Below are positions 2,579 through 25,447 of a DNA stretch of 36,368 nucleotides, piece after piece. Source of the DNA: Leptolyngbyaceae cyanobacterium SM1_4_3 (GTDB lineage: Bacteria > Cyanobacteriota > Cyanobacteriia > Elainellales > Elainellaceae); contig JAAUTN010000025.1 in NCBI GenBank assembly GCA_012031415.1, positions 1-36,368 on the forward strand, read 5' to 3'. The notes under the pieces are model-generated. The model was not told the origin of the DNA and did no database searches. It was given only the letters and a program-made list of their open reading frames with translations. The first letter of the stretch is position 1, and each line of letters starts with the position of its first letter. The translations under genes and the position numbers were made by a program.

Positions 2579-3337
2579 TTAAGGAATCACATTGATTTTG
2601 CCCTGACAAAAAAGCTGTCCTGACTCCAAAGTCAACGTTTGAATATCGACTTCTGATCCCAGGTCAATCAAAAAACCATGCAGATCGGTTAGGGGTAATC
2701 CTCGCTTTGCCTGAGCGTGAGGCAGCCATTGAGGATGAGTCATCTGCAACTCATGTCCGCTGACTAGCTGTAGTCCCGTGCGAATCACCAAAAGCGTTGT
2801 TTCACCGCTGACCGAAACTAGGTTTGCGCTTAACGTCAGCTGATCTGCGCCAATTAAAATCTTGAGGTTTTGCAGATTTAAGGATTGCTCTTCGCCGTTC
2901 TCCGCTAAGCCTGTAGCATCACTCGATCGCAGCAAATTCACCACAAACTCAGTCACAGCATTTGCCAACAGCGGAGCCTGCAAGGAAGCGTTTAGCTCTG
3001 CCTCTCGCAGCAACAGTTCACCCCAAACGGGTACCACTTCTAAGAGTCGTAGTGGCTTTCCTTTAATCACCTGCCCCAAGTTGACTCGAATGCCCGATCC
3101 CGTCAGGTCAATGCGGCTAAGGTGTAGCCCCTGATAAATTACACCCTGAGCCGAGATCAAGACTTGAGGAATGTGTCCGGTGAGCAATTGGCGATCGCCT
3201 CCCTCAATCTCAATCTCTAGCTGATCGACCTTCTCGACTTGCGATCGCAGCCATAGTCCCACGGCTGGAGATAGGAAGCTGCCAATAATTCGACTCTGCT
3301 TAGCTGGAGCCGAGTTTTTATCTTGCTCTAAAGGCAA
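2579..3337 (-). CDS. LmeA-like phospholipid-binding protein (DUF2993)
   Basis: A 252-residue protein of the DUF2993/LmeA family. It is built of amphipathic beta-strands, with a typical early segment about residues 20-75 (FLSPAVGLWLRSQVEKVDQL, then the QLLTGHIPQVLISAQGVIYQGL strand region). Actinobacterial LmeA binds phospholipid and acts in envelope mannoglycan assembly. The cyanobacterial members are widespread but not assigned a function. No cleavable signal peptide is seen. The chosen start is TTG at 3337. It has a strong AGGAG nine bases upstream and no better ATG lies nearby, so a non-ATG start seems real. The gene converges on cdsA, which hints at a lipid theme without proving it. Confidence 0.8.
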   Translation of the reverse strand: MPLEQDKNSAPAKQSRIIGSFLSPAVGLWLRSQVEKVDQLEIEIEGGDRQLLTGHIPQVLISAQGVIYQGLHLSRIDLTGSGIRVNLGQVIKGKPLRLLEVVPVWGELLLREAELNASLQAPLLANAVTEFVVNLLRSSDATGLAENGEEQSLNLQNLKILIGADQLTLSANLVSVSGETTLLVIRTGLQLVSGHELQMTHPQWLPHAQAKRGLPLTDLHGFLIDLGSEVDIQTLTLESGQLFCQGKINVIP

Positions 3338-19921: not shown

Positions 19922-20212
19922 CTAGAGAAGCTGCTCTTCCAATTCTTCAACCAGTTGCGCCATGTCGCCCTGATAATTTTGGTTGATGGCGATCGCCCTC
20001 TGCCTTAAGTGAGTTGGCACATAGCGCAAATGCACAGGCAAACCATGCAGCAGCAAAAACTCTGCAAGCTGATCCGAGTCAATGTAAATTCCTTCTTGGT
20101 GAAGTCGTCGCAAAATTCCCTCAAAGGAATGCCAGGTCTGGGCGGCTGAAATCTGGGTTGAACTTCGCACACTGTTAACTGCCAAAGTGACGAATGCGAA
20201 AGAGTCTGGCAT
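19922..20212 (-). CDS. Conserved small cyanobacterial protein, unknown function
   Basis: A 96-residue soluble protein starting MPDSFAFVTLAVNSVRSSTQ. It is mostly helical, with YIDSDQLAEFLLLHGLPVHL and a C-terminal LVEELEEQLL that look like protein-binding helices. I do not recognise a named family. Composition, ATG start and placement 69 bases upstream of the preferred cobO start on the same strand (30 bases from the alternative start) all support a real gene. A joint role with cobO is only suggested by position. An overlapping frame at 20005-20256 is a shadow. Confidence 0.65.
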   Translation of the reverse strand: MPDSFAFVTLAVNSVRSSTQISAAQTWHSFEGILRRLHQEGIYIDSDQLAEFLLLHGLPVHLRYVPTHLRQRAIAINQNYQGDMAQLVEELEEQLL

Positions 20213-21049
20213 GACTGAATGATCCCCAAATTAAAATTGAAGTGAATAAATCTCAAAAAATCTGGACAGAACTTGCAGTCAAAACTGAGCTAGCTTAATG
20301 CTACAGCAACTTGCCGATCAGTCCTGTTGAATAGACCCTCTTAAAAGAGATGTGAATAAGGTGATTCCGAGGATAGCGGCAGGAGGTATTGGTGTTAAAA
20401 TATGGATATGTAATGTTGCAAAAGGTTGCATAAAGCGTTGAAACTCCTTGCTTTTACTGGCTATCCCTGGATGCCCCTGTGGTATCTGGAAATGAAACTA
20501 AAGCGGAGACGGCGATGTGACCCGGCTCTCTCTTGGGCAGACCGCTGTGAGGGGCCCAGTATCGGCTGATCGACCTGTAACTACAGGTTTGCGGAGTGTA
20601 TGACTGCACGAGCTATGGCAATTAGCGCCGCTTTTAGCTCACCCGCAAGCTGGGTCGATCAGTTTATTTGCAAACTTGAAGAATTTGGGTAACTAAGTTT
20701 TGAGCCTGGGATGGTGGATATTTCACCTTTTTTCAGGTGGCGATCGCAATTGCTTTGAGCGGGAGCGATCGCTGGGAATGCTAGGTTTATTGCCTTTCTC
20801 TGTCCAGTGTGAATTGGAGCAGTAGGGGCGATCGCACTTACTGCTCCAATTCCATCATCAAAGCTGATTCAGATTTCTTGCAAATTGACCTTTCGATTGG
20901 CGTAAGCAACCTTATCGCCAATCCTGGCTCTTTGTGAGATCAGACTGGATTTTTGGCTTACCTAAAGATGCAGTTTGCAATGCGATTCATCCTTCAAAGG
21001 CGCACCCTCACCGTTTCACAGTTGATGCTTACCAATTGGGAGTGTACCA
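20213..21049. other. 837-base intergenic region with candidate structured RNA
   Basis: No protein gene is supportable. The left 230 bases are AT-rich. The centre (about 20474-20670) is GC-rich and full of nested inverted repeats (listed separately). The right part contains several HIP1-type words (20741, 20766, 20828) and then the SpeY-like gene leader. A GGGAG ribosome site lies eight bases before the ATG at 21050. Confidence 0.5.
20474..20670 (+). ncRNA. Candidate structured non-coding RNA, about 195 bases
   Basis: The block is GC-rich compared with both flanks and folds on paper. An outer stem pairs CTGATCGACC (20566-20575) with GGTCGATCAG (20653-20662), a perfect ten base pairs. Inside it TTGCGG (20589-20594) pairs with CCGCAA (20643-20648) and GAGCTA (20610-20615) with TAGCTC (20635-20640). 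The 5' half has TGGGC/GCCCA near 20534-20558. The 3' stem is followed by TTTATTTG, which could end transcription. A TTGAAA lies at 20438-20443 with a weak -10 18 bases on. The size is near that of 6S RNA, but I could not find the closing stem that 6S needs, so I leave it unassigned. Confidence 0.4.
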
Positions 21050-22252
21050 ATGTCTAAATTGCTTAGCCACAAGATTGCACCTGCTCCAATGCCTAAGGAG
21101 ATTAGCGTCGTCGATTTGATTGACGGCTACTTCACCGCCTATAACTCGGCCCGTCTACGAGAAATCTGTCACTTGCTCAGCCGTGAGGTTATGCGTGAAG
21201 GCGTTACGGTCGGACTGACCTTATCAGGAGCGATGACCCCCGCCGGATTTGGCGTATCGATTTTGGCTCCGCTGATTCGCAACGGCATGATCGATTACAT
21301 CATCAGCACTGGGGCAAATCTGTATCACGATATGCACTATGGTCTGGGATTAGATCTGTTTGCCAGCAATCCCTTTGTAGATGATGTTAAGCTCCGTCAG
21401 GAAGGACGGATTCGGATTTATGACATCGTATTTGACTATGATGTGCTGCTCGAAACCGATGCCTTTATCCGCGAACTGCTGCGTTCTGAACCTTTCCAGA
21501 AACGCATGGGAACGGCTGAGTTTCATCACCTATTGGGTAAATATGTCAGTGAAGTTGAGAAAAGACGCGGCGTACAGCATCCTTGTCTGCTTTCTACGGC
21601 TTACGAATGCGGTGTTCCAATTTACACCTCTTCTCCTGGCGACAGTTCAATTGGCATGAATGTTGCGGCACTGGCTCTGGAAGGCTCTAAGCTGGTGCTT
21701 GACCCGTCGCTAGATGTGAATGAAACAGCGGCGATCGCCTACAGCGCCCGTAACTCAGACCTTCCTGGAGTAGAAGGTAAGAGTGCTGCGGTGATCATCG
21801 GTGGTGGCAGTCCTAAAAACTTCCTGCTGCAAACCCAGCCGCAAATTCACGAAGTGTTGGGTCTAGAGGAACGCGGTCACGACTACTTCATTCAAATTAC
21901 TGATGCTCGTCCCGACACGGGCGGACTCTCTGGCGCAACCCCCACCGAAGCTGTAAGTTGGGGCAAAATTGACCCGAATGAGCTACCCAGCACGGTAGTT
22001 TGCTACACCGATAGCACAATTGCCCTGCCGATTCTGACGGCTTATGTGACCAACCAGTGTCCTCCCCGTCCGCTCAAGCGACTCTACGATCGTCGTGAAG
22101 AACTGCTAGAACGACTGCGGCAAGACTACCTTGCCGTGCAGCAGCAGCCTCAACAGGATTTGTCACCCGTTGTCAGCGCACCCGTCGCCGCAATGCGTGA
22201 ACCCGTCGCAACTTACCCCTGTGGTACTCCGATTCATCATGCTCAGCGCTAA
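21050..22252 (+). CDS. Deoxyhypusine synthase-like protein (SpeY-type, probable homospermidine synthase)
   Basis: A 400-residue protein of the deoxyhypusine synthase fold, which uses NAD and a lysine-bound aminobutyl intermediate. The active-site region [15 protein letters not shown] carries the Lys expected for the imine intermediate, and [11 protein letters not shown] precedes it. NAD-binding features such as [21 protein letters not shown] and [11 protein letters not shown] are present. Bacteria lack eIF5A, so this enzyme does not make hypusine. Bacterial homologues are reported to make homospermidine from putrescine. That function is inferred here from the family. The C-terminal 50 residues are Pro/Gln-rich and probably disordered. 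The ATG at 21050 has GGGAG upstream. A strong terminator follows. Confidence 0.85.
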
Positions 22253-22748: not shown

Positions 22749-23063
22749 ATGTCTGAATTTTTAAATGGTTTGTTTGCTTCCAATAGTTTTATTCCACACG
22801 GACATTGCTATCTCTGGAAACCAGAATTGGTAGGGCTTCATGTAAGTTCTGACCTATTAATTGGGTTCGCCTACTTTGCAATTTCGGTAACGCTCGTTCA
22901 CCTGGTTCGCAAAATTCAGCTTCCGTTTCATGGAGTTTTTCTAGCATTTGGGCTGTTTATTGCAGCCTGTGGCGCAACCCATTTTATTGAAGTGTGGACG
23001 CTCTGGCACCCAACCTACTGGCTGGCGGGTGGGGTGAAAGTGGTGACGGCGATCGCTCCGTGA
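22749..23063 (+). CDS. N-terminal fragment: ethylene-receptor-like membrane sensor
   Basis: This part encodes 104 residues with three membrane helices, including SDLLIGFAYFAISVTLVHLV and FLAFGLFIAACGATHFIEVW. It ends in a stop at 23061-23063, where the family would continue. The first reading frame after the HIP1 site gives ...VVTAIAP and stops. Restoring one base gives a run-on VVTAIA-SVITALSLPPL, expected for the third helix. As it stands it could also be a stand-alone sensor, since the next frame has a GTG that overlaps this stop (GTGA at 23060-23063). Confidence 0.75.
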   Translation: MSEFLNGLFASNSFIPHGHCYLWKPELVGLHVSSDLLIGFAYFAISVTLVHLVRKIQLPFHGVFLAFGLFIAACGATHFIEVWTLWHPTYWLAGGVKVVTAIAP

Positions 23064-25447
23064 TTACCGCTCTCTCACTGCCTCCGCTAATTCCTCAGGT
23101 GCAAGGTTTGGTTCGTAGCGCAAAACTAGCTGAGGAGCGCAGACTTCAACTAGAACTGGCTAACCAGGAGCTAGCTACGCTGTACGAACAGCTTAAGCAA
23201 ATGGATCAGGTCAAAACTCAGTTTTTTGCAAACGTTAGCCATGAGTTGCGAACGCCGCTGACGCTGATACTGGGACCGACAGAGCGTTTGCTAAGGGAAG
23301 ATGCCGCCCAGCCCTTTCGCCACAGCTTAGAGAGCATCGACCGCAACGCTCACACCTTGCTGAAGTATGTCAACGATCTGTTGGACATTTCAAAGCTAGA
23401 AGCAAACCGGATGGGCTTACGCTGGGTTCAGTTTGACCTGGCGCAGTTGTTACGGCTGGGTGCTTCACAATTTTCCCCACTGGCAGAAGAACGTCAAATT
23501 AACTTTGTCGTTGAAACGCCTTCTAGCCTCTTAGCTCAGGGAGATGTCGAAAAGCTACAGCGGGTTTTTCTAAACCTGCTTTCCAATGCGTTTAAGTTTG
23601 TGCCAGTCGGTGGAGAGGTGCGCTGTACCTTACAGCTTCTTGAAGCTGGGAGTTCTACGAACTGGGTAGACGAAGCCGCCAGACAAGTCAAAATAACGGT
23701 ACAAGATAATGGTCCGGGAGTCTTACCAGAACTGCGGCAAATCATTTTTGAGCGCTATCAGCAGGGCGATCGCCAGTCTAGCCAACCCTCCGGTGGAACT
23801 GGGTTAGGACTAGCGATCGCCAAAGAGTTTGTCGAACTGCACCAGGGCACCATAGCGGTAGAAGATGCGCCAGGAGGCGGGGCCAGCTTCATTGTCATCC
23901 TGCCACTCTTTACTAACGGCACTTCTAGTACCAGCACTTCCAGCAATGGAAAGTCTGCCCGATATGCAGATGCGGCGGTCGAAGTCGAGATAGACCAGGC
24001 GATCGCCCGACAAACGCTAGCAACTCTGGAAGTAGGCAATAGTCAAGCGACACTTGAAACTTCACCAGCTGCTTTGTCAGAAGATGCAACCCGTCCGCTG
24101 GTGCTGGTTGTAGAAGATAATCTTGACATGAGACGGTTTATCTGTGAAACGCTACAGACGGAATATCGCGTTACAGCGGCTCACAACGGTCAGGCTGGGC
24201 TAGAGCAGGCGATCGCCCTTCGCCCCGACCTGATTTTGACTGACCTGATGATGCCTCAGATGAGCGGCGACCAACTGGTGAAAGCGCTGCGGACGTATCC
24301 GGAGTTAAACAACACGCCCGTCATTCTGTTGAGCGCCAAAGCAGACGACGACCTGAGAACTGATCTGCTGCGACATGGCGCACAGGACTACTTAATCAAA
24401 CCTTTCTCCATAGACGAACTGCGGGCAAGAGTCTCTAACCAGGTTGCCGTTAAACAATTTCGGGACGTGTTAGAGCATGAACTGACTACCCGCAATCAGG
24501 ACACAATCACCCTGACCGAGAGCATTGCCAATCGACAGCAAGAATTGCAGGCAGCACTGGTTGCCTTGCGCCAGAGCGAAGCCCGGTTTAGACAGGTTGC
24601 CGAGTCAAACATGATTGGCATCATGTTTTGGAATTTGAACGGCTATATCACCGAAGCCAATCAAACCTTTCTGCAAATTACAGGTTACACCGAGGCAGAT
24701 TTGCGGGCAGGAGAAGTCAACTGGAGAAATATGACACCTCCAGAATTCTACGCCCTGGATGAAAGCGCTATTGCCGATTTGCTCACTTCAGGTGGATTTA
24801 CGCCCTATGAAAAAGAATACGTTCGCAAAAACGGTAGCCGTGTGCCGATTCTAATTGGTGGAGCCTTCCTGGAAGAATCAAGACAGTATGGTGTTTCCTT
24901 TTTGTTAGACATTACTGAACGAAAACAGGCTGAGTCGGCGCTGAAGCAAGCCCATAACGAACTAGAGCTACGGGTAGAGCAGCGTACAGCAGAACTTTCT
25001 AACGCTAAGGCTGCACTGGTACGAGAACAAGAATTTCTCAATGCCGTACTAGACAATGTAAATGCTGGAATCGTTGCCTGTGATTCTGATGGAGTTTTGA
25101 CTCTTTTCAATCGGGCGACTAGAGAGTTTCACGGACTGCCAGAACGAGCGTTACCGCCAGAGCAGTGGACAGAGGCGTACAACCTGTTTTTGCCTGATGG
25201 ACAAACCCCTTTATCCAAAGAGCAGATTCCGCTGTTTCGGGCGTTGCAGGGAGAGTATGTGCATAACCAGGAGATGATGATTTTGCCCAAGCAGGGAAGC
25301 GCCCGAATGGTGCTAGCGAGTGGGCAGCGATCGCCGACCCACAGGGCAAGAAACTGGGAGCCGTTGTGGTCATGCACGACATTACAGAGCGCAAACAGGC
25401 TGAAGCCCAGATTCGCGCCCTCAACGCTGAACTGGAACAGCGAGTAA
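23060..25447 (+). CDS. Middle fragment: HisKA-HATPase-receiver-PAS-PAS
   Basis: The frame is open from before 23060 to 25447. Its first family-like codons are GTG ATT ACC at 23060, overlapping the previous stop by GTGA, so coupled translation is possible. It encodes HisKA (NVSHELRTPLT), HATPase ([24 protein letters not shown]), a receiver (ILTDLMMP) and two PAS domains. The last about 40 residues after 25327 are out of frame and unrelated (HRARNWEPLWSC), which shows where the second base is missing. About 795 residues, of which about 755 are sensible. Confidence 0.75.
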   Translation: MITALSLPPLIPQVQGLVRSAKLAEERRLQLELANQELATLYEQLKQMDQVKTQFFANVSHELRTPLTLILGPTERLLREDAAQPFRHSLESIDRNAHTLLKYVNDLLDISKLEANRMGLRWVQFDLAQLLRLGASQFSPLAEERQINFVVETPSSLLAQGDVEKLQRVFLNLLSNAFKFVPVGGEVRCTLQLLEAGSSTNWVDEAARQVKITVQDNGPGVLPELRQIIFERYQQGDRQSSQPSGGTGLGLAIAKEFVELHQGTIAVEDAPGGGASFIVILPLFTNGTSSTSTSSNGKSARYADAAVEVEIDQAIARQTLATLEVGNSQATLETSPAALSEDATRPLVLVVEDNLDMRRFICETLQTEYRVTAAHNGQAGLEQAIALRPDLILTDLMMPQMSGDQLVKALRTYPELNNTPVILLSAKADDDLRTDLLRHGAQDYLIKPFSIDELRARVSNQVAVKQFRDVLEHELTTRNQDTITLTESIANRQQELQAALVALRQSEARFRQVAESNMIGIMFWNLNGYITEANQTFLQITGYTEADLRAGEVNWRNMTPPEFYALDESAIADLLTSGGFTPYEKEYVRKNGSRVPILIGGAFLEESRQYGVSFLLDITERKQAESALKQAHNELELRVEQRTAELSNAKAALVREQEFLNAVLDNVNAGIVACDSDGVLTLFNRATREFHGLPERALPPEQWTEAYNLFLPDGQTPLSKEQIPLFRALQGEYVHNQEMMILPKQGSARMVLASGQRSPTHRARNWEPLWSCTTLQSANRLKPRFAPSTLNWNSE

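Follow-up and report, generated by a model that had tools for sequence, protein, structure and literature searches.

Two bacterial leader peptides are, by analogy of function, most like the leader described here: SpeFL (ORF34) of speF and TnaC of tnaA. SpeFL/ORF34, from gammaproteobacteria (DUF2618, PF10940), is likewise encoded by a small leader ORF before a polyamine synthesis gene, and we model the new leader on its ligand-controlled arrest of the ribosome close to the stop codon (PMC8429421, PMC6386406). SpeFL controls putrescine synthesis, whereas the peptide reported here precedes enzymes of triamine synthesis; a further difference is the covarying RNA element located at the stop codon of the new leader. 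The new peptide is not a member of PF10940, as it has no Pfam match at E ≤ 1, and NCBIfam likewise yielded none at that threshold. TnaC, from the tna operon of E. coli, offers a second parallel as a termination-arrest leader in which Trp and Pro are conserved at a fixed spacing, although we saw no homology between it and the new peptide. TnaC acts in amino acid catabolism, and its output is Rho dependent. To our knowledge, Rho, which is also used in speF control, is absent from most cyanobacteria.

Outside the bacteria, plant and animal AdoMet decarboxylase (AdoMetDC) mRNAs carry a polyamine-responsive upstream ORF (uORF) before a triamine synthesis enzyme. In plants, the last residues of the uORF peptide before its stop codon are KPS, an ending reminiscent of the [GA]PS of the new peptide, but there is no demonstrable homology between the new peptide and the plant or animal uORFs. 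RNA alone can also exert polyamine control in bacteria, as evidenced by the spermidine riboswitch, a variant SAM aptamer (PMC10853860). The new leader is distinct from this riboswitch: its RNA has no Rfam match, and its constant part is a peptide. Established examples of direct triamine (spermidine, homospermidine) sensing by bacterial gene leaders are few, and the only bacterial leader peptide that we found to have a demonstrated role in polyamine synthesis senses ornithine or arginine. Moreover, according to a survey from 2016, attenuation in cyanobacteria lacked reliable data (PMC4833913). An earlier description of the present leader was not found in the literature searched, which covered few subscription journals.

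The leader lies in a 36,368-nucleotide contig (hereafter, the window) of Leptolyngbyaceae cyanobacterium SM1_4_3. Comparison with its relatives shows selection on both a peptide and an RNA fold, with a fixed geometry between them and a fixed pathway downstream. The element is very probably a cis-acting 5' leader of a polyamine gene, and the fuller reading, in which that leader also contains an arrest-peptide sensor, is probable too, if less assured.

The leader ORF and the fold at its stop codon

Entries in the ORF list end at position 20212 and resume at 21050, leaving an 837-base gap. A first-pass annotation had placed an unassigned structured RNA within it, at 20474-20670, on the basis of a GC-rich island, a perfect 10-pair stem, and helices nested inside. 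The island is real, with a GC content of 0.55 to 0.60 against roughly 0.35 to 0.45 in its flanks. All 10 pairs of the stem (20566-20575 with 20653-20662) match, the nested helices are present in the minimum free energy fold, and a T-rich run (TTTATTT) does follow the stem. The annotation overlooked a conserved small coding gene (20438-20569) that makes up the 5' half of the island, and with it the fact that the stem starts at the stop codon of this gene. The features of the locus are as follows.

20393..20401, + strand: probable extended -10 promoter element (TGTTAAAAT); the leader transcript would start near 20408
20420..20425, + strand: probable Shine-Dalgarno (SD) sequence of the small ORF (AAAAGG), 12 nt 5' of the TTG, a rather long spacing
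20438..20569, + strand: leader peptide ORF, with TTG start, 43 aa (MKLLAFTGYPWMPLWYLEMKLKRRRRCDPALSWADRCEGPSIG), and stop TGA at 20567-20569; intact in relatives
20566..20575, + strand: 5' arm of helix P1 (CTGATCGACC; RNA CUGAUCGACC, which includes the UGA), starting one base 5' of the leader stop TGA; covaries with 20653-20662
20576..20585, + strand: one-sided internal loop TGTAACTACA; conserved, consensus UGYAACUnnA
20586..20592, + strand: 5' arm of helix P2 (GGTTTGC); covaries with 20645-20651
20645..20651, + strand: 3' arm of P2 (GCAAGCT); covarying helix
20653..20662, + strand: 3' arm of P1 (GGTCGATCAG); covarying, and the stem is perfect
21050..22252, + strand: deoxyhypusine synthase (DHS)-like homospermidine biosynthesis protein (SpeY type), 400 aa; PF01916, E 4.5e-69; NF001980, 575 bits against a cut-off of 450

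Related DNA occurs once per genome in 32 of 36 genomes, covering all 21 genera of the family, and the matches span roughly 20436-20594 and look coding. Over 64 sequences, the in-frame pN/pS of the ORF is 0.22; the two alternative frames give 1.75 and 1.42 and are rich in stop codons. Aligned relatives share ten residues without exception (W, L, L, R, P, D, C, E, P, and S). Purifying selection is concentrated in the C-terminal 27 residues, whose consensus is WxLxxKLxxRRxxDPxLSWxDxCE[GA]PS; the N terminus and the start region vary, with TTG or GTG as start codons. Constraint extends to the codon at one position: the Ser after CE[GA]P is encoded by AGT in 68 of 68 leaders, while the invariant Leu and Pro positions are spread over four to six codons. 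A small ORF that is selected as protein and lies in the 5' region of a gene on the same strand is characteristic of control by a leader peptide, and this one is such an ORF. By eye, a motif like TG[TC]TA.A.T occurs at a similar distance 5' of the ORF in most relatives, and AAGG or AAGGTTG precedes the TTG start in many. The sigma-70 scan did not report the candidate promoter at 20393-20401.

The same conserved region bears on codon starvation, in which the ribosome would pause at an Arg/Lys run (KLxRRR) when arginine, the cyanobacterial polyamine precursor, is short. The run is present in nearly all leaders, and this kind of attenuation has been proposed for Salmonella orf34-speF, where two Arg codons of orf34 control speF (PMC6386406). 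However, almost half of the leaders have Lys in place of the middle Arg (R in 33, K in 30), conservation is strongest 3' of the run (DPxLSWxDxCE.PS), where attenuation by codon supply would not need it, and the anchor point of P1, the stop region, comes well past the run. We consider codon starvation a rather improbable basis for the leader.

The RNA half of the locus also held up. Its minimum free energy fold on this strand reaches -77.2 kcal/mol (z, -2.2), a stability equaled in 2 of 200 shuffles. Folding energy by itself is modest evidence; the covariation across 45 relatives is strong. In the alignment of those 45 distinct sequences, 95.4% of P1/P2 cells are paired, eight pairs have changed on both sides, and 60 cells carry double changes, compared with 20.4 in shuffles (none of 500 as high); slid registers collapse. 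P1 pairs appear as U-A/C-G, A-U/G-C, and C-G/U-A, and P2 appears as GGUUUGC/GCAAACU, GGUUCGC/GCGAACU, and GGUUCAC/GUGAACU. The U, G, A, and A of the internal loop are invariant (alignment A4), and the apex of P2 is variable and unconserved. The 5' arm of P1, which overlaps the leader stop codon, covaries. Sequences without a recognizable P1/P2 (L060, L061, L084, and most of the DHS-B leaders) were omitted from this alignment.

We built a covariance model, R1, from the 45-sequence alignment. In the window's genome, 20566-20662 is its sole match at E ≤ 0.1 (E 1.2e-15). Among 292 genomes, 14 have an R1 match with E < 1e-5, and in all 14 the match is the leader locus. R1 also recovers DHS-B leaders absent from its training set, such as L277-L281 and L301-L305, and it has no match at any of 46 DHS loci that lack an intact leader peptide.

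Downstream of P1, evidence for a conserved intrinsic terminator is not convincing: T-runs are mildly enriched (27% versus 7 to 15%), and a terminator-like hairpin in the window (20713-20727) looks broken in a sister species. Also unsupported is a hairpin inside the leader ORF (CUUGGG/CCCAG), whose pairing is broken by common TCC-TGG codon variants.

The first-pass annotation was right that this RNA lies outside the known classes. Rfam 15 finds only two tRNAs in the window; at the island, tmRNA, RNase P, SRP, and the other families have no match at the gathering score, and the weak matches, all far below cut-off, are not meaningful. 6S RNA (RF00013), which is about as long as the island and had been suggested by size, also has no match at its gathering score of 46.4, and the genome's own 6S RNA scores 92 bits elsewhere (C515:223-406). 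The stem observation thus stands and the 6S idea falls. An alternative origin in a decayed mobile element, which the annotation had named as grounds for dismissal, is excluded by single-copy conservation in every genus of the family, and a plasmid-borne or mobile element was rejected because there is no plasmid match and only a single copy per genome.

The annotation had also raised a free-standing structured small RNA of about 195 nt. An isolated GC-rich island with a covarying fold would suit such an RNA, and termination or processing could free the leader as a short transcript. Coding selection in the 5' half, a constant position upstream of polyamine genes, and the separate 6S gene argue against it, and we regard it as very improbable; the element is instead a 5' leader, made up of a small ORF and an RNA fold, of the downstream homospermidine synthesis gene.

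Genes downstream of the leader

The gene at 21050 falls within NF001980, named homospermidine biosynthesis protein, and SpeY is a DHS homologue that makes homospermidine (PMC9992855, citing Burnat et al. 2018). Leader loci were searched by peptide sequence alone, ignoring their neighbors. In the first set, in which some genomes were counted twice, a same-strand PF01916 gene lies 3' of the leader at 69 of 72 loci. The exceptions are one locus at a contig end (L080), one followed by unrelated, proteobacterial-looking sequence (L063), and one followed by speD and speE (L084). The L063 metagenome contig appears chimeric, with proteobacterial-looking genes following the cyanobacterial leader downstream of position 3132. 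In a second set of largely more distant genomes, the count is 63 of 65, and both misses are one locus at a contig end. Wherever the downstream DNA is intact, a triamine gene follows on the same strand at a distance of 51 to 931 nt.

The enzymes behind the leader are diverse. Two DHS-like subfamilies bear it, about 30% identical to each other: NF001980 (the window type, 575 bits) and NF002699 (583 bits), whose NCBIfam name is 1,9-bis(guanidino)-5-aza-nonane synthase. Two genomes (G213 and G417) have a separate leader before each of these two DHS types. In L084, from Oscillatoria SIO1A7, the leader precedes AdoMetDC and spermidine synthase, on one metagenome-assembled contig. Three enzyme types with different products thus carry the leader (the homospermidine type, the 1,9-bis(guanidino)-5-aza-nonane synthase type, and AdoMetDC plus spermidine synthase), and the factor common to them is triamine synthesis.

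These data also bear on whether the small ORF encodes a stable micro-protein with a function of its own, such as binding the DHS-like enzyme, that is simply cotranscribed. Purifying selection on the C-terminal region and the constant gene pairing are consistent with this. Nevertheless, the same peptide stands before the nonhomologous speD, the N terminus and start region are variable, a single Ser codon is invariant, the stop codon lies inside P1, TTG or GTG is a weak start codon, and the conserved stretch has roughly the length of the ribosomal exit tunnel. We judge a stable micro-protein unlikely. The size of the peptide had also raised AtpTheta/Norf1, a cyanobacterial ATP synthase inhibitor micro-protein, which was dropped on distribution and gene context. 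Norf1 has been reported from Synechocystis and Anabaena 7120 and as lacking in thermophilic Synechococcus JA strains (PMC5126843); the leader peptide, in contrast, was not found upstream of the DHS-A genes of Nostocaceae type (family f6), and its gene context differs too.

Sequence searches found the leader peptide in more than 100 cyanobacterial genomes, both small (2.5 Mb) and large. It occurs in about 19 of 292 genomes sampled across the phylum and in about 135 of 388 sampled at class level, a sample that includes many relatives of the window. For comparison, DHS is present in 70 of the 292 genomes and speD in 228. Across the phylum, speD and DHS-like genes look partly complementary, in that no speD match was obtained in many of the genomes with DHS, among them that of the window. 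All six DHS-B genes examined from the photosynthetic class are preceded by the leader. Because the f6 DHS-A genes lack it, the leader is dispensable for the enzyme as such. In another family, a degraded leader peptide (L158 in G263; 24.5 bits) lies upstream of DHS-A, an apparent leader loss. None of the leaders from the 292-genome peptide search could be placed at speD, which leaves L084 as the sole speD case in this analysis.

Farther downstream in the window, an ORF resembling the N terminus of the ethylene receptor ETR1 (22749-23063) overlaps a hybrid histidine kinase ORF (22994-25447) in a different frame, as if one sensor kinase gene had been split by a frameshift or sequencing error.

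Leaders with altered stop codons or without P1/P2

Natural variants of the leader are of two kinds. The first comes from family f26 (L302-L305, mostly genus g77), where the leader stop of g77 is UGA in L303 and CGA in L302, L304, and L305; in the CGA variants, the ORF continues through the 5' arm of P1 to a UAA. Despite this difference, the position of P1 is fixed relative to CEGPSM in all four. Second, the peptide is kept without an R1 match in L099-L101, L105, L271-L276, L283, and L292. In the DHS-B leaders without P1, the predicted pairing partner of the enzyme gene's SD is the leader ORF, with a probability of about 1.0 in L105 and L292; in these two and in L100, none of 100 shuffles scored as high. 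Among 12 related DHS-B leaders tested, the pairing exceeds shuffles individually in only about half.

These variants are informative about a riboswitch, in which the P1/P2 RNA with its UGYAACUnnA loop would itself sense a polyamine or other metabolite and the small ORF would merely couple translation. The invariant unpaired nucleotides of the internal loop and the strong covariation of P1/P2 fit such a sensor, and a spermidine riboswitch class is known in other bacteria (PMC10853860). However, the peptide is conserved in the lineages without P1/P2 listed above, while P1/P2 was never found without the peptide (R1 across 292 genomes and at the 46 DHS loci); the speD leader of L084 retains P1 and has a changed internal-loop sequence; and no Rfam riboswitch matches. 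A riboswitch thus seems to us unlikely, to about the same degree as a stable micro-protein.

A possible nascent-chain sensor of triamine synthesis

We favor a ribosome-based mechanism because the final conserved Ser is AGT in every leader while invariant Leu and Pro residues use four to six codons, because P1 is fixed relative to CEGPSM whether the stop is UGA or CGA, and because pairing between the SD and the leader ORF is predicted in the DHS-B lineages without P1. We have moderate confidence that the leader peptide is an arrest-peptide sensor.

In the model that we propose, the C-terminal nascent chain would respond, from within the exit tunnel, to a polyamine or a precursor, and would thereby slow the ribosome or arrest it, either at the Pro-Ser codons or at the stop. 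An arrested ribosome would cover the 5' arm of P1 and so block P1/P2, while prompt termination would leave P1/P2 free to form. Once formed, P1 could act on downstream transcription, on the stability of the mRNA, or on how the enzyme gene is translated. In lineages without P1, the actuator appears to be the pairing of the enzyme SD with the leader ORF. The expected purpose of such a leader would be feedback control of the triamine level.

Whether the leader represents an undescribed family of arrest peptides that sense polyamines, either ancestral to Cyanobacteria or widespread among them, is to us an even bet. Such a family would serve three kinds of triamine synthesis enzyme (SpeY, the bis(guanidino)azanonane synthase type, and SpeD-SpeE) through two actuators (the stop-codon-anchored P1/P2 and SD-leader ORF pairing). 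If true, bacteria would have a triamine sensor that acts through the nascent chain, and cyanobacteria would offer a clear example of control by a leader peptide. A gene below ORF length cut-offs and an RNA absent from Rfam would be the two halves of one regulator. The leader supplies a defined peptide, fold, and set of genes and occurs in genomes both small and large, so that nascent-chain polyamine sensing is directly testable.

Finally, several complementary segments were observed between the leader and speY. A perfect 9-bp complement (TTGCAAACT/AGTTTGCAA; 20668-20676 with 20972-20980) connects the segment immediately 5' of speY with the end of the RNA element, and GCAAAC at 20670 could compete with P2 for GGTTTGC. 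At 20811-20852 lies a 21-nt inverted repeat without a spacer, its arms 90% complementary (GAATTGGAGCAGTAGGGGCGA/TCGCACTTACTGCTCCAATTC), with a GCGATCGC site at mid-repeat.
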